Positions 4,594-29,141 of a stretch of DNA of 36,950 bases are shown here, one piece after another. The notes below the pieces were generated by a model. It did not search any database. It worked only from the letters and a program-made list of their open reading frames with translations, and was not told the origin of the DNA. The stretch covers positions 1-36,950 of IMG/VR virus record IMGVR_UViG_3300031651_000008; one strand, given 5' to 3'. The translations under genes and the position numbers were made by a program. The stretch's first letter is position 1, and every line of letters begins with the position of its first letter. Source of the stretch: a virus.

Positions 4594-4712
4594 AACACCC
4601 ATTAAAAGACAATCGGGCCGTTAGCTCAGATAGGATAGAGCACCTGACTTTAGAGGATGTTCAAAGGAAGCACAAGAAATATTCTCCAGCGAAATTGATG
4701 GAGGTGAAATGA
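4590..4712 (+). CDS. Small basic early protein over a tRNA-like stretch
   Basis: 40 residues, overlapping by 4 bases both the upstream gene and the downstream one (ATGA at 4709). The product is basic and helical (LTLEDVQRKHKKYSPAKLME). Bases 4615-4652 within it resemble the 5' half of a tRNA, so part of this frame may be recruited from a tRNA. Coding is likely from the overlaps but not certain. Confidence 0.5.
   Translation: MKHPLKDNRAVSSDRIEHLTLEDVQRKHKKYSPAKLMEVK
4615..4652 (+). other. tRNA 5'-half-like sequence
   Basis: GGGCCGTTAGCTCAG, then ATAGGATAGAGCA and CCTGACTTTAG, reproduce the acceptor 5' strand, a complete D arm (GCTC/GAGC) and the 5' side of an anticodon stem and loop of a bacterial tRNA. 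The 3' anticodon strand (expected TCAGG), T arm and acceptor 3' strand are absent, so this is a truncated relic and not a working tRNA. Confidence 0.55.
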
Positions 4713-5530
4713 GAAAAGTATTGGCTTATAAATTAGCTCGCACAGATGGTTGGGATTTCTACACAGGTAAAACTATCAATTATCGTGATTTTATAGGCAA
4801 GGTTGTCAAATGCCCCAACCCTAACCCGAAGCTAGGGGTTTGCTCAAGAGGAGTAATCCACGCAAGTAAAAATTCCAATGACTGTTTCGTGGGGGCTAGG
4901 ATTCCTTGTTCAGCTTATAGGGTTGAAGGGAAGCCAGCCTGTGGGGATAAAACAAAGTGGGGGTTTACAGAGTTATACATCTTGGAAGAAATTAAGGATT
5001 TAGACGCTTTGTTTGGCTGGCAATATAGCAAAGCTATTAACCCTATCAATCCCCTATCAAGAAAGGTTAAACCGACAAAGAGCGATATAGCATTACTTAA
5101 AGAATGGGCTAGCGTCTGGGTTAGCGTCAGGGATAGCGTCTGGGATAGCGTCGGGGATAGCGTCTGGGATAGCGTCGGGGTTAGCGTCTGGGATAGCGTC
5201 AGGGCTAGCGTCGGGGTTAGCGTCTGGGATAGCGTCAGGGCTAGCGTCGGGGCTAGCGTCGGGGTTAGCGTCTGGGATAGCGTCAGGGCTAGCGTCTGGG
5301 ATAGCGTCTGGGATAGCGTCGGGGCGTATATTGGTAGGCTATTTCCTAATATCAAAGAGTGGAAATATATTAAACACAAAAAAGGGGTATATCCCTATCA
5401 GCCAGTAGTAGATTTATGGGAACGAGGGCTTGTTCCTAGTTTTGATGGGAGTAAGTGGCTACTACATAGTGGTAAAAAGGCTGATATTGTCTTTGAAATA
5501 ACCAAACAGGAACTCTTGGAGGTGAAATGA
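4709..5530 (+). CDS. Protein with 18 tetrapeptide repeats
   Basis: 273 residues. Residues 1-133 form an N-terminal domain with Cys at CPNPN, GVCSRG, DCF, PCS and ACG, ending in FTELYILEEIKDLDALFG. Residues about 135-206 are 18 units of the form [W/G/R][D/V/A]SV. The C-terminal 65 residues contain YQPVVDLWERGLVPSF and KWLLHSG. The repeat may form a regular beta or helical solenoid or a binding array. I recall similar SVWDSV-type repeats in uncharacterised phage and metagenome proteins; the function is unknown. Start has GGAGGTGAA and a 4-base overlap. Confidence 0.75.
   Translation: MRKVLAYKLARTDGWDFYTGKTINYRDFIGKVVKCPNPNPKLGVCSRGVIHASKNSNDCFVGARIPCSAYRVEGKPACGDKTKWGFTELYILEEIKDLDALFGWQYSKAINPINPLSRKVKPTKSDIALLKEWASVWVSVRDSVWDSVGDSVWDSVGVSVWDSVRASVGVSVWDSVRASVGASVGVSVWDSVRASVWDSVWDSVGAYIGRLFPNIKEWKYIKHKKGVYPYQPVVDLWERGLVPSFDGSKWLLHSGKKADIVFEITKQELLEVK
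5108..5324 (+). repeat. 12-bp tandem repeat array, 18 copies
   Basis: AGCGTC recurs exactly every 12 bases from 5111 to 5320 (18 copies). The six bases between copies are NGGGNT, where the first N is T, G or A and the second is A, T or C. Every unit thus encodes (W/G/R)(D/V/A)SV, and variation is confined to two bases per unit. A higher-order block (WDSV, RASV, GVSV) also recurs, which indicates slippage or unequal exchange. Confidence 0.97.
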
Positions 5531-6359: not shown

Positions 6360-6611
6360 ATGAAAGGTGAAATAGCAGACCAAGCGGTTGATAGGAAGGT
6401 TGAGGATAAGCACGAAGCAGAGGAGAAGAAGCGGATAATCCAGCACATAGAGGAAGTATTGGGCTTTTGGTATCTTTCACGCCTGAACTTCTTTGATGCT
6501 GTTTATGAGGTTTATCAACTAGCCCAAGGTGATGAGCACATGGCTATGCTAAACAACTACCCCGACTGGATCGGTGAGATAAGAGATGAAGTTTGTAGTG
6601 GGGGTGGTTAA
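6360..6611 (+). CDS. Hypothetical helical protein
   Basis: 83 residues from ATG 6360 behind AGAGGAGGTAGCA; the in-frame start at 6336 has no ribosome site and overlaps the previous gene. Mostly helical with an aromatic central stretch (VLGFWYLSRLNFFDAVYEVY). Its TAA shares one base with the start of the ERF gene, so the two are translationally coupled. Confidence 0.6.
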   Translation: MKGEIADQAVDRKVEDKHEAEEKKRIIQHIEEVLGFWYLSRLNFFDAVYEVYQLAQGDEHMAMLNNYPDWIGEIRDEVCSGGG

Positions 6612-7180
6612 TGGAAAAGTCAGAAACAATCGGGGAACTAGCAAAAGCGTTAGTCAAGGTTCAGGCTGAATTACAACCAGCCGTAAAGGGGCAGGTTAAT
6701 CCTTTCTTCAAAAGTTCTTATGCCAACCTGTTGGAAATTTGGCAGGTATGCCGTAAACCATTAACTGATAATGGGCTATCTATTACCCAAATAGCAGATG
6801 ATAGGGAAGGTAAGACGAACCTAGAGACAGTCTTAATGCACGAAAGCGGAGAATGGATTAAGGGGTGCTTGCCGTTAATGCCTATTAAGCAAGACCCACA
6901 AGGACAAGGCTCGGCTATAACATACGCCAGGAGATATAGTCTCGCAGCAATCGTGGGCATATCTACTGAGGATGATGATGCTGAGGCAGCGACTAGCCAT
7001 AAAGTAAATCCTACTGCACCCGGGCTTGCCACTCAAAAGCAAAAGGATGATTTAGCTAAGTTTGATAAAGGGAGGGTTGCCGAGATTATGAAAGAGCGAG
7101 GCTTCCCAAGAGAACTGACCAAACTTAACGCTGACATTCTGCTTACTCAATTAACTGTTGAAGAGGAGGCAAAGAAATAA
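6611..7180 (+). CDS. erf: ERF-family single-strand annealing protein
   Basis: 189 residues. The core matches the ERF superfamily: KSSYANLLEIWQVCRKPLTD near residues 36-55, then NLETVLMHESGEWI, and the signature QGQGSAITYARRYSLAAIVG near residues 96-115, followed by the acidic EDDDAE. ERF proteins anneal complementary single strands in phage recombination and can circularise terminally redundant genomes. A C-terminal tail follows after residue 130. The start shares one base with the upstream stop. Confidence 0.93.
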   Translation: MEKSETIGELAKALVKVQAELQPAVKGQVNPFFKSSYANLLEIWQVCRKPLTDNGLSITQIADDREGKTNLETVLMHESGEWIKGCLPLMPIKQDPQGQGSAITYARRYSLAAIVGISTEDDDAEAATSHKVNPTAPGLATQKQKDDLAKFDKGRVAEIMKERGFPRELTKLNADILLTQLTVEEEAKK

Positions 7181-8973: not shown

Positions 8974-9966
8974 TTGTTTGACTTAAAGCGGTTTGTTAAG
9001 GGGCAGAAAGCTCTTGGATATAGCGTGGAAGAGGTGAAGGATTTGGTGAAGGCTCTAGCTATGGGTAATGGGTTTATCAAGGATGTTGATCAAGCGTTAG
9101 CCAGGACTGAAATCATCTTCAAGGCTGACCCAATCAGGAGCCTATCAGAGCAGATTAACGAGTGGGTTAGCGTTACAACGGGTTACTTTTCCGTTACAGA
9201 CTGTGACAGAGAGTTACATTGCGTTACACCGCAAACTAAAACAAACCGCAGGGTTATATTACATCGTTTGGTTGAAGCAGGAGTTCTTGAACGCCACCCT
9301 AAGAAGAATGGAATCTATCGTAGGATAGAAAATGAATCACCTGTTATCGAGTGGGAGACTGCGGATATATCAGCGACCATTCCTTTGAAGTGGCCGTTTG
9401 AGTTGGAGAATTACGCTCTTATCTACCCAAAGAACATTGCTGTAATCGCTGGTGCTCCCAACGCTGGTAAGACTGCGTTTCTGTTGAATCTTATCAAGCT
9501 GAATATGGATAAATACAGAGTCCACTATTACTCTAGCGAGATGGGGCCAGAGGAACTTAAATTGAGATTGTCTAAGTTTGGCAATAGCAACTGGAAGTTT
9601 GACGCTAGAGAGCGGAGTACCAACTTTGCCGATGTTATCTATCCCGACGACATAAACATCATAGATTATATCGAGATTACTTCTGGGGAATTTTATCTTA
9701 TTGGTGAGGAATTACGAGCGATATTCGACAAGCTAAACAAGGGCGTTGCAATCGTAGCGTTGCAGAAAAAGAGAGGGGCAGAGTTAGGAAGAGGTGCTGA
9801 GTTTTCATTAGAAAAGCCTCGCTTGTATCTATCAATGGATTCGGGGGCATTGAAAATCATTAAGGCGAAAAATTGGGCAATAAGTTCAGAAAATCCTAAT
9901 GGCGTTGAGTTTAGCTTTAAGTTAGTAGAGGGGGCTTCTTTTGTTGATATGCATGAAGTTACATAA
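8974..9966 (+). CDS. RecA-like ATPase with N-terminal winged helix (helicase-loader or helicase type)
   Basis: 330 residues, TTG start (an in-frame stop lies three codons upstream, and no ATG is near). Residues 60-125 look like a winged-helix domain (TNRRVILHRLVEAGVLERHP). Residues 150-320 are a RecA-fold ATPase: Walker A GAPNAGKT at 160-167, then YYSSEMGPEELKLRLSKF as in DnaB-type proteins, and IVALQKKRGAELGRGAEFSL corresponding to the QxxR-type region. It probably powers replication or recombination on DNA. Its 3' end overlaps the antisense endonuclease by 8 bases; the C-terminus looks natural, not broken. Confidence 0.82.
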   Translation: MFDLKRFVKGQKALGYSVEEVKDLVKALAMGNGFIKDVDQALARTEIIFKADPIRSLSEQINEWVSVTTGYFSVTDCDRELHCVTPQTKTNRRVILHRLVEAGVLERHPKKNGIYRRIENESPVIEWETADISATIPLKWPFELENYALIYPKNIAVIAGAPNAGKTAFLLNLIKLNMDKYRVHYYSSEMGPEELKLRLSKFGNSNWKFDARERSTNFADVIYPDDINIIDYIEITSGEFYLIGEELRAIFDKLNKGVAIVALQKKRGAELGRGAEFSLEKPRLYLSMDSGALKIIKAKNWAISSENPNGVEFSFKLVEGASFVDMHEVT

Positions 9967-10438
9967 GTTTTGGTTTATGAATCCGTGTATCATTCAGGGC
10001 TTTAACAGCCGCGTGGAGCTTATCCCTTTCTATAAGTTCTTCGTCTGTAAGTTTTTTAACTCTGCCTGTGAGTGTGTAATTGCGATTTCGTTGTCTATCA
10101 CAAAGTTGAAGGAGCAATTGAGCTTGCTCTTTTTTAATACGAAGATAGGGCAAGACGGCTATAATGCAATTACGTGCCGTTTTAAGGGTTGCACTCCAAC
10201 TGTATATGTCTTTATGTCGTGGGTGATGCGACTTTTCAAATGCCTTTCTACCACCAAAAGTTTCGTGCAACAAATTTACAATTTCAGGGCGTACTTGCTT
10301 GAAGATTATGCGTGGGGTATGTTGAGGAGATTTTGCCTTTGCGTTTGGAACACGCAGTACAGTAGTGTTTCGGTAGATACCAAAAGACCCATCACAATCC
10401 AAGCATCCTGCAAGGTAAACTATCAAATCATTGTTCAT
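9959..10438 (-). CDS. LAGLIDADG homing endonuclease
   Basis: 159 residues on the minus strand. The signature YLAGCLDCDGSFGIY near residues 8-22 is one LAGLIDADG helix with the catalytic aspartate, followed by RIIFKQVRPEIVNLLHETFG and LPYLRIKKEQAQLLLQLCD, typical of a single-motif dimeric enzyme. It cuts long DNA sites and promotes its own spread. It runs against the early operon, has its own promoter and no clear Shine-Dalgarno at the right distance, and lies directly behind the ATPase gene, the likely homing target region. Confidence 0.9.
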   Translation of the reverse strand: MNNDLIVYLAGCLDCDGSFGIYRNTTVLRVPNAKAKSPQHTPRIIFKQVRPEIVNLLHETFGGRKAFEKSHHPRHKDIYSWSATLKTARNCIIAVLPYLRIKKEQAQLLLQLCDRQRNRNYTLTGRVKKLTDEELIERDKLHAAVKALNDTRIHKPKLM

Positions 10439-12037: not shown

Positions 12038-12448
12038 GTGAAGAAGATACGGGTAGATAAACTTGACAGGCTATTCTCTGAATATATCAGGCGAAGGGCT
12101 ATTCAAAGAGTAGGTGGTTGTGAGCGTTGCTTGGCTCAGAAGCACGACACAACAAGGGAAGATGGTTCTACCCGTCCAGCATATATGGAACTTCAATGCT
12201 CTCATTTCTGGGGGAGGGCGAAGCTCAATGTCAGGTGGGATGAAGATAACGCAGCGGGAATTTGCGCAGGCTGTCATTTATATCTGACCGCTAATCCAGA
12301 AGAACATAGCTGGTGGTTTGCAGAGCATTTAAGGCGGGAGAAGTTTGAGATGCTTCTTGCAAGAGCAAATGAAAAGGGCAGTCCAGACCGCAAGGCTATT
12401 GAGCTGTATCTAAAGCAGAAGCTAGAGGAGATTAAAGGGATTGAATGA
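12038..12448 (+). CDS. ninG: NinG/Rap-like recombination nuclease
   Basis: 136 residues, GTG start. LDRLFSEYIRRRA, a CERC knuckle near residue 28, then LQCSHFWGRAKLNVRWDEDN and AGICAGCHLYL make the zinc-bound HNH-like core of NinG (Rap) family proteins, which cut branched DNA during phage recombination. The C-terminal helix (LARANEKGSPDRKAIELYLK) also fits. It overlaps the methyltransferase start by 4 bases and works plausibly with ERF. Confidence 0.82.
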   Translation: MKKIRVDKLDRLFSEYIRRRAIQRVGGCERCLAQKHDTTREDGSTRPAYMELQCSHFWGRAKLNVRWDEDNAAGICAGCHLYLTANPEEHSWWFAEHLRREKFEMLLARANEKGSPDRKAIELYLKQKLEEIKGIE

Positions 12449-13356
12449 GATTCATAGATATGTTCTGCGGAATAGGGGGTTTTAGACTTGGGCTTGAACA
12501 AGCGGGTTCTCAAATACAGCAGGGCAAACAAGAAGAACAAAGAGGGCAAGATAGAGATAACCTATCACGAAGGGGAAATAGTGGGTTCTCTGAAAGGCCC
12601 AACGGGCAACCAGCGGAATTTCATTGTGTCTGGGCCAATGACAACGATAAATACGCCTGTCAAATCTACCGAAGGCACTTTGGGGAAGTCACAGAGGCAG
12701 ACATCAAAACAGTTGACGCTAGTGCCATACCAGACCACGAACTCCTCTGTGCGGGATTTCCTTGCCAATCTTTCTCTAAGGCTGGGAAGCGACGAGGCTT
12801 CGAAGATACTAGAGGGACACTATTCTTTGATATATGCCGAGTCCTACGGGCTAAAAGACCTCGCTTGCTTTTCCTTGAGAATGTTAGGGGGCTCCTCTCC
12901 GCTGACGAAGGTAGAACCTTTCTCATTATTCTACAATCGTTGGATGAACTGGGGTATGACTGTCAATGGCAGGTGCTTAACAGCAAGGACTACGGCGTGC
13001 CACAGAACCGAGAGCGGGTGTTCATTATCGGACATCTTAGAGGACAACCCAGACCAAAAGTATTTCCTCTCGGAGAAGCAGGTCAACTCAATGAAACAAT
13101 GGAACTCACAGGAGAACCCACTACCGGCTGTTTACGGGCGAGAGGAGAAGAAGATATGCACTCTGGTTTGAATCTAGTGAGCGAAATGGAAGGAATAAGG
13201 CGCTTAACTCCCATAGAGTGTGAACGCTTACAGGGATTCCCCGACAACTGGACGGCTGGTATAAGCGATGCGCAAAGGTATAAATGCCTGGGCAACGCCG
13301 TGAGTGTTCCAGTCATAGAGGCAATCGGAAGGCAGTTAATGGAGTTTAATGGCTGA
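12445..13356 (+). CDS. dcm: C5-cytosine DNA methyltransferase (Dcm family)
   Basis: 303 residues with all key motifs: I FCGIGGFRLG (7-16), IV GFPCQSFS with the catalytic Cys (about 104-111), VI ENVRG (about 143-147), VIII QNRERV (about 187), IX TPIECERLQGFPDNW and X GNAVSVPV. It would transfer a methyl group to cytosine C5 and protect phage DNA. Odd features: a 37-residue polar insertion (residues 22-58) between motifs I and II, a short target-recognition region of about 50 residues, and a long ORF in the +2 frame inside it. No restriction partner is present. Confidence 0.95.
   Translation: MRFIDMFCGIGGFRLGLEQAGSQIQQGKQEEQRGQDRDNLSRRGNSGFSERPNGQPAEFHCVWANDNDKYACQIYRRHFGEVTEADIKTVDASAIPDHELLCAGFPCQSFSKAGKRRGFEDTRGTLFFDICRVLRAKRPRLLFLENVRGLLSADEGRTFLIILQSLDELGYDCQWQVLNSKDYGVPQNRERVFIIGHLRGQPRPKVFPLGEAGQLNETMELTGEPTTGCLRARGEEDMHSGLNLVSEMEGIRRLTPIECERLQGFPDNWTAGISDAQRYKCLGNAVSVPVIEAIGRQLMEFNG
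12581..13171 (+). CDS. Nested out-of-frame ORF inside the cytosine methyltransferase
   Basis: The +2 frame is open from 12488 to 13171 (227 codons). A GTG at 12581 has AAGGGG five bases upstream and would give 196 residues. The product is not random-looking: SSVRDFLANLSLRL, WMNWGMTVNGRCLTAR, then CSLSDILEDNPDQKYFLSEK near the end. From memory, phrases like SLSDILE..P.KYFLS occur in a family of phage proteins encoded near Dcm genes. It may be a true overlapping gene or a shadow reading conserved because motif VIII is conserved. Confidence 0.4.
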   Translation: MGSLKGPTGNQRNFIVSGPMTTINTPVKSTEGTLGKSQRQTSKQLTLVPYQTTNSSVRDFLANLSLRLGSDEASKILEGHYSLIYAESYGLKDLACFSLRMLGGSSPLTKVEPFSLFYNRWMNWGMTVNGRCLTARTTACHRTESGCSLSDILEDNPDQKYFLSEKQVNSMKQWNSQENPLPAVYGREEKKICTLV

Positions 13357-23453: not shown

Positions 23454-23587
23454 ATTGGTATTATTTTGGAATGGCAATGATAGTGACGTGCTGTTTAATA
23501 CCCCTAATTATAGGTGGGATTGAAGATGAGATTAGGATACGAAAAGCAAGAAGGCAAAGGGAACTAGACAGATTAAATGAACGATAA
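23450..23587 (+). CDS. Small single-span membrane protein
   Basis: 45 residues: one membrane helix (about residues 4-23, YYFGMAMIVTCCLIPLIIGG) and a charged cytoplasmic tail (RIRKARRQRELDRLNER). Overlaps the upstream gene by 4 and the giant gene by 11 bases. Function unknown. Confidence 0.55.
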   Translation: MNWYYFGMAMIVTCCLIPLIIGGIEDEIRIRKARRQRELDRLNER

Positions 23588-26500
23588 CCTGACCGAGCTA
23601 TTACGCAAATATAGCACCGAACCCGAGGACATGGAGAAGCTGTTAAAAGAGCTTCATGCTGGCATAGAACAACGGAAGATAGAAAAACCCGAAGTAGCGG
23701 TATTGAACACCCCTCAGATATTCGACTGGGAAGAGGCCAGGGGGATGGGGATTCCTGTCCGCCAGGGCTGGATGCTGAAATTAACTCCCGATACCAGCGA
23801 GAGAGGGTATAAATTAAGTTTCCTCACACCGGAGAAGTGGGAGATAACCGAGGATTGGAAGTATATCTCTCCCGAGGGTAAGGCATACGACTATACTGAG
23901 ATGGAGACTGTGGTTGGTGAGCATCCCGAAGCGGTGTATGGGGAACTTCCCCCTGAGGAAGATTTATTGGGTATTGTCTCATATCTCGAAAGCAACCCAG
24001 AGGAATTTATGGCTGACTTAATGGAAGCTGGCAGGACAACCGAGAGTGAGGATTTACTTAAGCAACTGGGAGCAAGTGAGGCTTATATTGATTATGTCTT
24101 TATGAGTGAGGAGGAGCAAAACGCTCTCTTATATGACATTTACAAGGCTGGTAGAAGCCCAGCAAGCGAAAGTATGTTAAAGGACATCTTCACTGATGTC
24201 ACAGAGGAACAACTAGCAGAGTTCTTTGTTAATGCGCCACAGGCTTATCAACAGGAAAGCAAGCTAAAGAATATCTGGGATGCTTTCTATTCTGGTATGG
24301 CTAATAGGTGGTATGGGAGCAAGCAATATCTCCTCACGGAATTGCCGTTAAATATACTATCGGGGAAATCTAAACTCTTTGGGGGCTATGGGTTTCTACC
24401 AACATTCTCTGAGGTTACAGGACTAAGAATTGAAGAATCAGAGAAGTTCCTTGAAGGGTTACGTGACAAATTCAGGCAAGGGTATATTAAACGCAAAGAC
24501 GAATACGCTGAATGGGTGGAAGGTCATCCTGAATTAAGACCTCCTCCCGAGTGGGAAGGCGGAACTCTTGAGAAGATTCAGGAAGCCCCGGGGATTCTGA
24601 AAGACCCTGCTTATTGGGCGTATGTGGCTGCTGATACCGCAGCTTTTACACTCGCTTTCTTGGGAACAACTATGGTGGTAGGTGGCATCACAAGGAATCC
24701 TTTTCTTGGATTAGCTGCTGGTGTAGCGGTTACAACCCCTGCTCAATCACATGATTTATACGAGGATTTATTGATGAGTGGGGCTACGGAAGAGCAAGCA
24801 ACAGACCTTTCAGTCCCTATTGGGGCGTTGATTTCTTCGATTGAAGTCGTTGGGGGTATGCCAGTATTAAAAGCTATATTCCCCTCTGTCTTCCAGGGTT
24901 TAAGAAGGAATGTTCAGAGAGAGATAGCCAGACGGACAATAGGGGAATTAACAAAACGAGGAGTGACAACTGTTACCAAGATTGAGTTAGCTGAGATATT
25001 CGAGGAGATTGTTCAGGGTGCTATCCAGGATGCTACGGTCAAGACTATTGACGAGAACCGTGAGTTACTTGCAAATATACCAGAGACCACGATACGAACG
25101 GCAATGGCTACTCTTCCCCTTGCACTTATCGGTGGGGGAAGTGCTGTAGGTCAATTTCATAAAGCAATGTCTCCCGAATTAAAAGCGGACTATGACGGCT
25201 GGGTGGCGAAGCTAAAGGAACAAGGCATTCCTGAAGAGCAAGCCAAGATAATAGCTGCTGGTAAGATATTAGAAACCCCCGAAGGGCAAGAGGCTTTAGA
25301 GAAGGCTATGGGGGAAGTGGATCGAGTGGAAATTACGCCAGAGGTTGCAAAGCCTAAAATTGAACTAAGAAAAGAACAACCCAATGTATGGACTATTTAT
25401 CGGGATGATGAATTGGTAGGGAATGTTCAATTTGAACGAGTAGGCAGGGATAAAGCAGGGGCTAATTTAAGATGGATTGACCCCAATACAGGCGAAAAAC
25501 AGTCAATTCATTTGGTTGGAGCTTCAGAGCAATCAGTAGAAGCCAATATAGAAAAATTAGTAGAGAAACATATTCCTAGAGCAATCCCCAAGGCTGTGAC
25601 TGAAGCTGGATTCAAAACAGTAGGCCGTATGCCAAGCGGTGAAGCTAACCTATTACAAACACCAGAGGGCGTAATTATAGAACGCATTGCTACTGGTAAA
25701 CAAAAGGGTTGGTGGAAAATAATCGTTGGTAATACAGAGTATGTTGGGAAAACCCCTGAAAGTGTATTGGAAATTGCTCATAGTAAGGGGGCTATCCCTA
25801 AAGCTATACCTATCCACGCTACCAAAGGTGAAGCAGAAGCATCTGCTAAACAGGTTATATTTGATGCGGTAAAGGAAGAAGCTAATCTTGAAGAGACACA
25901 AGATGTAGTCAAGAAACTAACCGACCTTATCAAGAACGCAGAACCGATAAGGGAAGCAACAGAGAAGTTAAAGCATGAAGAGTTAGTTAAGAGGTCTGGT
26001 AGAGCTGCTTCCATTTTAAGGTCAGCGGAAGGTAAAGAGGCGTTTGAGAAGTCTAAGGCAGCGTTGAAGGGAGAACTCCCGAGAGCGGACTTTGCACCGC
26101 CTGAACTACAACTTACGGATGGTGATATTAAAGCGTTATACGATGCCATAAGGGATGCTGACTTACGTTATTTTGAGCAGTTAAACACAGCCGAAGCCTT
26201 AACCAAATTACTTTCAGGAAATATCCCAACATCAGGGGAGTTGAAGTTACTGGAAGATATGTTTGGGGGCGATTTGGTCAAAGCGGTGATGGACAAAAGA
26301 ACCGCAGGGCAAAAGGCTTGGGAGATAACATTAGACGTTCTGAATATACCCAGGGCGGTATTAGCTTCGTGGGACTTATCAGCACCGTTAAGACAGGGGG
26401 CACTTCTATTCTGGGGTCAGCCGAAGGAATCAGTACCAGCGTTAAGACCTATGGTTATATCGTTTTTCAGCAAGAAGCATGCTAGAACGGTTGATGAGAT

Positions 26501-29141
26501 TATCAGGGCTAATCCCTATTATAACCTATCCCAAGACTCGGGGTTATATGTTGCTCCGCTATATGGCGTTTCTGAGAAGATAACACAGAGAGAAGAGGCA
26601 TTTATGTCCAGGTTTGCCCGATATTTCCCTCTTGTATCTCATTCAGAGAGAGCTTATGTTACCTATCTTAACAAGCTGAGAATGGATGTCTTTGCCAGTT
26701 ATGCCAGGGCGTGGGAAGGAACGAGTAGGACGGTTGCTGACTATAAGGCACTCGCCAGGGCTATAAATGTAATGTCAGGAAGAGGTCTGCTTGGCAAGAT
26801 GTCAGAGATAGGTGGAGTTCTCAATGCTGCCCTTTTCTCGCCTCGCTATCAGGCGAGTAGGATAATGCTACCGATAGAATTTGTCAGAGCTACTCCTGTT
26901 GTTCGTAAGATGATGGCTCGGGGCATACTCTCCTTTGTAATGGCTAACTGCACGATACTAACTCTATGGGTATTAGCCGATGATGATGCCAGCGTGGAGC
27001 TTGACCCTCGTTCTACTGATTTCGGCAAACTGAAAATCGGCAATACGAGATTGGATTTCTGGGCAGGCTTTCAACAGTATTTCAGGACGATTGTTCAGAT
27101 AATCACAGGAATGAGGAAGATATCAACAACGGGGAAACTCACCGAAGTTCAGAGAGACCAGGTAGTGAACCAGTTTGTCAGGAGTAAGCTATCTCCTGTC
27201 TTTGGGTTTGTCGCCGACCTTCTCAAAGGCGAGACTTTTGTTGGTGATGAGTTATCGCTGGAACCTGAATCGGTAATACAGCAAGCACGTGAGCGGTTAG
27301 TCCCGATGTTTGTTCAGGACTTGATAGAAGCTATAGAGGAGACAGGGCTTGCTGGTGGTCTATTAGCTCTCCCAGGTATGTTCGGCGTTGGTGTGCAGAC
27401 TTATGGTGGAGGTTACTGGGATGAGTTTATAGATATGTTAGGGCAGCCGAAGCAGTCTGACACGCTACCGTATTCTGTGAACAAAGAGGACATATACGAT
27501 ACTAAAGACTTCTATGGCGATATATCACCTAGAGTAAGCGGGATAAAACCAGAGGATATTGACCCGAAATACCACATACCCGATTTGGTTCAGTCTGTCA
27601 TTAAGGCGAAGGCGATAAAAGAGGAATACCAAAATCGCCCGAGTTCTCGGTATGTTGATATAAACTCAGACTTTAATGAGGGAGACACCTTCGAGGAGTA
27701 TTTCCTACAGTGGCAGGCATATCAAAAGGCAACAACCGATGAGGAGAGGGTAGGGATTAAAGAGAAGTACCCTCAGTATTATATAGGCAACTTTAGCCGA
27801 CAGACTTTAGCTTTACTCAGGGAGTATTATTCGTTAGACAAAAGAGACCAGGCTGAGTTTTTGAAAGACCATCCCGAACTCAAACAGAACCCCCGGGAAG
27901 AATGGCTGAAAAGTCATCCTGAAGATAACGCTCTGTTAGCATTGTGGGGGCAGGCTAAGATTTATTCCTTAGAGGCTTACAACGATGTCAAGAAACTCAT
28001 TGACGAATTGGATATACCGGGTAAAGCGGTAGAATTCAATTTACCCCCTAAAGACTCAATAGAAAACTACTTCAAGTATCTTGACACGAGTGCTGAGTTT
28101 GGGAGTAATAGCTGGGAAGTGAGGCGGTTGTTATTAGACGATGACCCTTTGAGAGACTGGTTAGGGCGTGAGCTGATAGAGGACAATCCGAAAGTCCTAG
28201 ACTTGCAGATTAAAAACCGTGAGTTGAGTGAGGAGTATGAGGGTTACGGAGACAAGGATTCGCCGTATTATATTTCAAACGATGAAGCCAGAGACGAAGC
28301 CAGAGAAGCATTTAAGCTAAATCATCCAGAATGGGTTGCTGATGAGCATAGAATAGATGCTTACAAAGCGGAGTTCCCTGAAGGATTGATTGACGATTAT
28401 GTTACCTGGTACACCGACTTCTCCAAGAAGCCCGAAGATTTTGAGGGGACTTGGTATGCAGATGACCGCTGGCTGATGGAGCATAGAGAGTTTTATAACA
28501 CGATGCTTCGTTTAGGGATTTGGACTGAGGAAAGGGACTTCACGAAAGTTCCTACCGTAGAACAGGAAAGGTGGCTCAGATACTATGACAATCTTCCTAA
28601 ACACCTGAGATTGGAAGCGAGATGTGGCAATAAAGCTCTTAATGACGCAGTAATGAATAAAGATTGGGGTTATGGCTTACAACCTCTTGGTGATAGATGT
28701 GATAAGTTTGGAGGTGGCGGTGGTAGTGGAGGTGGTGCAAGTGTGGGCATTCCTTATTCGGGCGTGTCGCCAGCAGTACAAATAGCTGAAATGATAAAAC
28801 AACTATGGGAGGGGGAAGGGAAAGAAATACCACCAGCCGAGCGTCCTATTTGGGAAGACCCACATGAGCAATGGATGACTTATAGTCAAAAAACTCACAC
28901 AGATTTCAGTGATATGGTACGTTCAGCTAGGGAGGCAGGGGCAAAGGTAATAAAGAGAGGCCAATATCGGCATCGCTTGGACTATGTACCAGAGGGCTAT
29001 GACCCTTATGAGATATTTGATGTAGCATTACTGGAAAAGCCTGATGGAAGCTGGCTTATAGTAAGGTGGGGGCATCACTACAAGCACTTACAAGTGATAA
29101 ACATGGGCGAGCATCATAAATACGCTGGGCTTATGAGTTGA
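23577..29141 (+). CDS. Giant virion protein, probable internal/ejection polyvalent protein
   Basis: 1,854 residues between portal and scaffold. Helical, acidic front; hydrophobic segments near residues 341-385 (AADTAAFTLAFLGTTMVVGG), 501-525 and 1118-1135 (FVMANCTILTLWVLADD). Between 560 and 800 there is a compact basic domain. Residues 1030-1200 (NAALFSPRYQASRIMLPIEF and following) resemble domains of large polyvalent phage proteins. A Gly/Ser linker GGGGGSGGG near 1710 separates a C-terminal domain of about 130 residues ending in DGSWLIVRWGHHYKHLQVIN. It may be carried in the head and injected with the DNA. No catalytic site is certain. Confidence 0.7.
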   Translation: MNDNLTELLRKYSTEPEDMEKLLKELHAGIEQRKIEKPEVAVLNTPQIFDWEEARGMGIPVRQGWMLKLTPDTSERGYKLSFLTPEKWEITEDWKYISPEGKAYDYTEMETVVGEHPEAVYGELPPEEDLLGIVSYLESNPEEFMADLMEAGRTTESEDLLKQLGASEAYIDYVFMSEEEQNALLYDIYKAGRSPASESMLKDIFTDVTEEQLAEFFVNAPQAYQQESKLKNIWDAFYSGMANRWYGSKQYLLTELPLNILSGKSKLFGGYGFLPTFSEVTGLRIEESEKFLEGLRDKFRQGYIKRKDEYAEWVEGHPELRPPPEWEGGTLEKIQEAPGILKDPAYWAYVAADTAAFTLAFLGTTMVVGGITRNPFLGLAAGVAVTTPAQSHDLYEDLLMSGATEEQATDLSVPIGALISSIEVVGGMPVLKAIFPSVFQGLRRNVQREIARRTIGELTKRGVTTVTKIELAEIFEEIVQGAIQDATVKTIDENRELLANIPETTIRTAMATLPLALIGGGSAVGQFHKAMSPELKADYDGWVAKLKEQGIPEEQAKIIAAGKILETPEGQEALEKAMGEVDRVEITPEVAKPKIELRKEQPNVWTIYRDDELVGNVQFERVGRDKAGANLRWIDPNTGEKQSIHLVGASEQSVEANIEKLVEKHIPRAIPKAVTEAGFKTVGRMPSGEANLLQTPEGVIIERIATGKQKGWWKIIVGNTEYVGKTPESVLEIAHSKGAIPKAIPIHATKGEAEASAKQVIFDAVKEEANLEETQDVVKKLTDLIKNAEPIREATEKLKHEELVKRSGRAASILRSAEGKEAFEKSKAALKGELPRADFAPPELQLTDGDIKALYDAIRDADLRYFEQLNTAEALTKLLSGNIPTSGELKLLEDMFGGDLVKAVMDKRTAGQKAWEITLDVLNIPRAVLASWDLSAPLRQGALLFWGQPKESVPALRPMVISFFSKKHARTVDEIIRANPYYNLSQDSGLYVAPLYGVSEKITQREEAFMSRFARYFPLVSHSERAYVTYLNKLRMDVFASYARAWEGTSRTVADYKALARAINVMSGRGLLGKMSEIGGVLNAALFSPRYQASRIMLPIEFVRATPVVRKMMARGILSFVMANCTILTLWVLADDDASVELDPRSTDFGKLKIGNTRLDFWAGFQQYFRTIVQIITGMRKISTTGKLTEVQRDQVVNQFVRSKLSPVFGFVADLLKGETFVGDELSLEPESVIQQARERLVPMFVQDLIEAIEETGLAGGLLALPGMFGVGVQTYGGGYWDEFIDMLGQPKQSDTLPYSVNKEDIYDTKDFYGDISPRVSGIKPEDIDPKYHIPDLVQSVIKAKAIKEEYQNRPSSRYVDINSDFNEGDTFEEYFLQWQAYQKATTDEERVGIKEKYPQYYIGNFSRQTLALLREYYSLDKRDQAEFLKDHPELKQNPREEWLKSHPEDNALLALWGQAKIYSLEAYNDVKKLIDELDIPGKAVEFNLPPKDSIENYFKYLDTSAEFGSNSWEVRRLLLDDDPLRDWLGRELIEDNPKVLDLQIKNRELSEEYEGYGDKDSPYYISNDEARDEAREAFKLNHPEWVADEHRIDAYKAEFPEGLIDDYVTWYTDFSKKPEDFEGTWYADDRWLMEHREFYNTMLRLGIWTEERDFTKVPTVEQERWLRYYDNLPKHLRLEARCGNKALNDAVMNKDWGYGLQPLGDRCDKFGGGGGSGGGASVGIPYSGVSPAVQIAEMIKQLWEGEGKEIPPAERPIWEDPHEQWMTYSQKTHTDFSDMVRSAREAGAKVIKRGQYRHRLDYVPEGYDPYEIFDVALLEKPDGSWLIVRWGHHYKHLQVINMGEHHKYAGLMS

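Follow-up and report, generated by a model that had tools for sequence, protein, structure and literature searches.

What kind of coding sequence holds ten of its twelve bases fixed through 18 tandem copies and lets only the other two vary? The question is raised by a repeat in a viral genome record (IMG/VR record IMGVR_UViG_3300031651_000008), of which we analyzed the whole 36,950-nucleotide stretch, here termed the window. A sequence-only reading had described 18 units of 12 bases, NGG GNT AGC GTC, with two variable bases per unit and AGC GTC unchanged even synonymously. Column counts and Tandem Repeats Finder (5105-5324, period 12, 18.3 copies) agree with this description. The consensus NGGGNTAGCGTC fits all 18 units, and ten columns are invariant. 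Unit base 1 is T, G or A (9, 5 and 4 units), and unit base 5 is A, C or T (9, 5 and 4 units). The four third codon positions of the unit are all invariant, and synonymous change is zero. The span first given, 5108-5324, contains a real array but begins 3 bases too far downstream; in codon register the array ends directly before GGGGCGTAT (Table 1). Eight of the nine possible unit types are present, and the ninth (AT) occurs in a sister phage, L002. The proposed nine-letter alphabet is local: six letters (W/G/R by D/A) are used by most relatives, and other arrays have different alphabets. WDSV-RASV-GVSV, thought to be a recurring block, is present a single time; GVSV-WDSV-RASV is the recurrent triple, with three copies (three copies of some triple arise in 3.7% of shuffles). 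No repeated block exceeds the length expected by chance (p=0.25).

Table 1. The array gene, its parts and a neighboring recombinase gene in the window
Feature	Position	Strand	Basis or remark
ORF with array, 273 aa	4709..5530	+	89% identical protein in L002
N-terminal domain, DUF7666-like fold, with LLKE motif at its end directly before the array	4709..5104	+	Foldseek, hhalign
Array of 18 twelve-base units NGG GNT AGC GTC, encoding (W/G/R)(D/V/A)SV	5105..5320	+	Codon register; only unit bases 1 and 5 vary
C-terminal domain GAYIGxLFPxIxxWKY...LWxxGLVPSFDGxxWRLHxG, common to the window-type family	5321..5527	+	Alignments; no family named
ERF-family single-strand annealing recombinase, ~1.1 kb downstream of the array gene	6611..7180	+	Pfam PF04404, E 4.6e-25

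To see whether the tetrapeptide pattern recurs in other phages, as the sequence-only reading had proposed checking, we scanned viral contigs (78 loci) and species genomes (11 more), the first searches using repeat peptides with W, G and D as bait. The pattern does recur: phages and genomes hold 78 distinct (W/G/R)(D/A/V)SV arrays, totalling 1,610 units. Within an array the Ser-Val codons are frozen, and across arrays 14 codings are represented (e.g. AGC GTC, TCG GTC, TCC GTG). Nearly all 78 arrays vary at position 1 of the first codon and position 2 of the second. Minor-allele units number 870 in column 1 and 553 in column 5, versus 356 in the ten other columns together, and 24 of the 78 arrays obey the two-column rule strictly. 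It had been suggested that relatives with many other substitutions would expose the pattern as an accident of recent duplication; what the relatives show is that the same two sites vary whichever codons are frozen. Tetrapeptide-like arrays were also seen in short or frame-disrupted ORFs at four loci (L063, L064, L073 and L076), possibly as decaying copies or reads in another frame.

The window protein matches no family in Pfam, PHROG or NCBIfam. Serine-repeat matches of its relatives in NCBIfam fall far below cutoff and were rejected. Proteins of the window type have varied N-domains, followed by the array and then by a C-domain with the LWxxGLVPSFDGxxWRLHxG signature. When the predicted N-domain of the window protein was compared with BFVD by Foldseek, several DUF7666 proteins were matched with a probability of 1.00 (best E 1.3e-4), the compact matches covering ~105 residues at ~3.3 Å. 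Profile comparison with NTG-type DUF7666 proteins gave a weaker result than the fold (hhalign, E 2.8e-4, probability 41%). In Pfam, the window protein has no DUF7666 (PF24703) match, and two relatives, L005 (E 0.0032) and L006 (E 0.0013), score below cutoff. The N-domain matches DUF7666 by predicted fold and falls outside it by the Pfam gathering cutoff. Neither the window protein nor its array DNA has a match among 50,697 phage records, and the same is true of the relatives L022 and L005; the array DNA also has no match among E. coli genomes.

Several other features of the window were observed in passing. Just upstream of the array gene, at 4616-4660, is a tRNA-like beginning (GGGCCGTTAGCTCAG...); ARAGORN finds no tRNA in the window. 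A 159-aa ORF on the minus strand (9959-10438), whose neighbors run the opposite way, resembles a LAGLIDADG homing endonuclease by eye. The ORF at 12445-13356 looks, also by eye, like a C5 DNA methyltransferase (MRFIDMFCGIGGFRLGLEQAG), and a long ORF (12488-13171) overlaps it. A single 1,854-aa ORF (23577-29141) lies upstream of the capsid gene.

The same type of array is found in a second carrier. DUF6745 (PF20530) proteins contain (W/G/R)(D/A)SV arrays (E 3.5e-44 for the domain in L035), and in this respect they are like the window protein. They differ from it in their N- and C-domains: Pfam finds no DUF6745 domain after the array of the window protein, and the window-type C-domain has no detectable relation to that of DUF6745 proteins (profile-profile probability 0.4%), so that homology between the two is unsupported. 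DUF6745 proteins also carry other cores. Those of Mycobacterium prophages have (W/G/R)(D/G)QL arrays, and others have SL arrays. A search with the DUF6745 profile, which is independent of the repeat, recovered L181, L179 and L170 from cellular genomes. L181 has 57 units of (D/R/N/G/Y)(G/D)AV, with five residues at the first variable site and two at the second, and L179 has 25 units of (H/G/D)(G/D)AV; synonymous variation is zero in both. The array of L170 is of the SV type. Since codons other than NGG serve in the AV arrays, a translational effect of the NGG codons was set aside. In 15 of 40 loci, the flanks contain a small gene (RQGDV...GEVTGHxHAV, phrog_27831), often adjoining the DUF6745 array gene (examples are L031:3979-4437 and L097:1466-1795, with others next to DUF6745 genes in L034-L053 and L089); a gene of this type is also found upstream of a Streptomyces DUF6745 gene that has no array.

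We also searched directly for SAATNTG repeats, a feature of prophage proteins. Here the unit is SAATNTG followed by two further residues (27 bases), and we found 77 arrays with 881 units. The codons of the final two residues hold most of the variation (0.46 in column 22, 0.20 in column 25 and 0.29 in column 26). Minority units include 186 synonymous versus 962 nonsynonymous cases, synonymous change being less completely absent than in SV arrays. The N-domain of these proteins is DUF7666, above cutoff (E ~1e-34). Like the window protein, they have an N-domain predicted to fold similarly, then a frozen repeat in which two adjacent residues vary, then a short C-domain, and their arrays turn over between near-identical phages. 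Unlike the window array, their unit has nine residues, on an unrelated scaffold, and the variable residues are D/Y/N/H and Q/R/W/C/Y. Among the carriers, the annotation of ES18 gp53 and of the protein of Salmonella phage SEN22 is unknown function or c-type lectin precursor, and that of the proteins of Acinetobacter phages fLi-Aba02 and fLi-Aba03 is putative ADP-ribosyltransferase; Pseudomonas phages carry arrays of this type as well. A search of E. coli for SAATNTG arrays, meant as a population test, gave no match.

AlphaFold2 models the window array as mostly helix, with confidence down to ~50 mid-array, and the array of a DUF6745 carrier at a pLDDT of ~30. Foldseek finds no PDB relative of either model (for the window protein, none below E 0.001). 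Because a straight alpha-helix has no constant face at a four-residue period, a plain amphipathic helix would not be an obvious solution. The idea of a tunable binding solenoid is accordingly not borne out as regards the fold, given mostly helical models of weak mid-array confidence; binding by the array may reasonably be inferred. Our preferred reading, to which we assign a probability of roughly 55%, is that the array is a hypervariable recognition surface of a phage accessory protein, with units that are reshuffled and two residues per unit under diversifying selection.

A different and rather unlikely account is that the array is a structural heteropolymer, a spacer or scaffold that needs a mix of bulky, charged and small residues, in which order is irrelevant and no partner is read. 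Unit order is indeed near random, without conserved positions, and composition is even along arrays. The only hints of a period in unit order are weak signals at lag 2 and lag 4, with inconsistent parity. The W fraction varies among arrays no more than chance allows (chi2/df 1.04). Moreover, an xxQL period persists in diverged, non-homogenised form in some cyanobacterial chromosomal DUF6745 proteins, suggesting that the four-residue period has a structural role. Yet the G, R, D and A fractions are more variable among arrays than expected by chance, and alphabets differ widely from array to array. Filler would also hardly explain why a nine-residue scaffold shares the two-residue design.

Selection on the two residues was assessed by counting minimum events. 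SV arrays require at least 29 synonymous versus 383 nonsynonymous events, against an expected synonymous fraction of 0.23 (p=2e-18, a value that is indicative only, because the arrays share ancestry to some degree and the events are not fully independent). QL and SL arrays require 30 versus 247 (p=1e-7, likewise indicative). Within arrays, paralogous pN exceeds pS in 74 of 78 SV cases, and pS is zero in 47. A neutral model combining unit turnover with mutation gave a window-like array in none of 600 runs. Arginine is encoded by AGG in some arrays and by CGG in others, with the two mixed in just 1 of 78, indicating that residues rather than bases are kept varied. Together, the nonsynonymous excess, the neutral model and the use of Arg codons point to several residues being maintained at two sites while neutral positions are homogenised. 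The pattern of selection at these sites is well supported.

These data bear on two further explanations, both largely refuted. One is targeted mutagenesis of two bases, akin to that of diversity-generating retroelements, with no selection on the protein. Concentrated nonsynonymous variation in a phage protein is a shared trait, and a mutator of this kind would suit both the restriction to two codon positions and the presence of eight of nine unit types in one array. But the window, possibly an incomplete record, has no match to the PF00078 reverse transcriptase, and there is no adenine-specific pattern, the A of AGC being invariant. Besides, AGG and CGG are not mixed as randomised bases would be, and some arrays vary at other codon positions. 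The second is a very recent expansion, in which a few founder units multiplied and had no time to vary further. Identical synonymous positions and a triple present three times are what it would predict for the window; it does not predict that the same two sites vary on 14 codon backgrounds, that adjacent units are no more similar than random ones, or that neutral turnover never produced a comparable array.

Comparisons of closely related phages show that the arrays turn over. L002 matches the window at 99.5% over 402 bases of left flank and 100% over 1,488 bases of right flank, but its array has 14 units instead of 18, in a different order. Two Mycobacterium prophages (L096 and L101) match completely over the 1,488 bases on each side of the array and have 47 versus 20 units; a third (L102), with the right flank in common, has 21. 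For SAATNTG pairs in which both flanks are >98.5% identical, arrays differ in 26 of 27, and the one identical pair has the same contig name. In the Pseudomonas phages Flu_PA14_4 and YA3, arrays are reordered and the remaining DNA closely matches. Arrays do not always differ: Flu_PA14_4 is the same as Komp_PA14_gP throughout, and one short array is common to S107 and S135. The differences in unit number and order support the earlier suggestion of a rapidly recombining combinatorial array. They do not extend to on/off contingency. That the locus serves mainly to switch or grade expression or protein length through copy number, the variable residues being incidental, is very improbable: copy number does differ between near-identical phages, but steps of 12 or 27 bases preserve the frame and switch nothing off, and the near-exclusive nonsynonymous variation is left unexplained.

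Some caution applies to assembly. In 26 of 88 loci, the available sequence ends no more than 60 bases from the array, and a published study found short-read assemblies of fungal HNWD arrays unreliable (PMC12222747). Short-read assembly may therefore have altered unit order and number in some contigs; the two-site pattern is independent of assembly, and the exact unit order may depend on it. In fLi-Aba03 (L318:2953-3828), ambiguous bases occur in the variable-residue codons, and compared with fLi-Aba02 the array gene lacks 162 bases, equal to 6 units of 27. This could stem from a stock containing several arrays or from collapse during assembly. That the pattern itself arose through the collapse or shuffling of repeats in short-read contigs is most improbable, since an assembler cannot make differently frozen codons vary at the same two sites and deposited complete phage genomes have the pattern too.

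How might a hypervariable recognition surface arise and be maintained? Each unit would consist of a frozen Ser-Val scaffold, with frozen codons, and two adjacent variable residues. Slippage or annealing recombination would duplicate units, delete them and exchange them, and through this turnover all neutral positions of an array would be homogenised by concerted evolution. Several residues would persist at the two positions because diversifying or balancing selection acts on the protein. The number and order of units might then set the target bound, and the partner would be a fast-changing one, with a defence factor of the host or a rival phage as the likeliest candidates. Near-random unit order without conserved positions would fit selection on composition alone as well. 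The ERF recombinase of the window is a candidate driver of the reshuffling. In ES18, the array gene likewise lies upstream of erf, in the immunity region and beside a gene resembling gene 24 of P22; the array genes of ES18 and SEN22 adjoin antitermination and repressor genes of this region. This setting, and the proximity of the ERF gene in the window, suggest that the window array protein is probably expressed early. We claim no general link between arrays and recombination genes, ERF, RecT or YqaJ genes being near 7 of 40 long loci with no background rate.

Two known systems may work in a similar way. In TAL effectors, the residues at positions 12 and 13 of the repeat set specificity (PMC5121632). 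In phage arrays as in TAL effectors, near-identical units are repeated in tandem and two neighboring residues of each unit vary; the sequences are unrelated, and the likeness is one of working only. The TAL unit has ~34 residues (33-35), forms a helical superhelix and reads DNA, whereas the phage unit discussed here has four. WD40 repeats of the HNWD family (HET-D and HET-E of Podospora) undergo concerted evolution, with hypervariable sites under diversifying selection (PMC12222747, PMC1805685, PMC2873952). The phage arrays likewise combine concerted evolution with diversifying selection at few sites. Unlike the phage array, which is predicted to be helical and has no Pfam match, HNWD repeats form WD40 beta-propellers in fungal NLR immune receptors, and they differ from it in unit size and biology too. 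In the open-access literature (subscription journals being mostly outside it), we found no paper describing the phage arrays under DUF6745, DUF7666 or the repeat motifs.

More broadly, and tentatively, the arrays may represent an undescribed class of modular recognition proteins of phages, which use two adjacent residues per unit as letters, have arisen several times on different scaffolds (xxSV, xxQL, xxSL, xxAV and SAATNTGxx), are continually reshuffled without a dedicated mutator, and track a fast-changing partner in the host or a rival phage. If so, phages would possess a retroelement-free form of combinatorial protein diversity, in which frozen units with two variable residues are reshuffled between near-identical phages. 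Its parallel appearance on at least two unrelated scaffolds would make two variable residues per unit a recurrent solution, as it is in the immune receptors of fungi and in TAL effectors. Two domains of unknown function, DUF7666 and DUF6745, would also become easier to approach, and their targets could expose a rapidly shifting line of conflict between phages and bacteria. The nine-residue version is carried by cultured phages such as ES18 and is thus open to testing.
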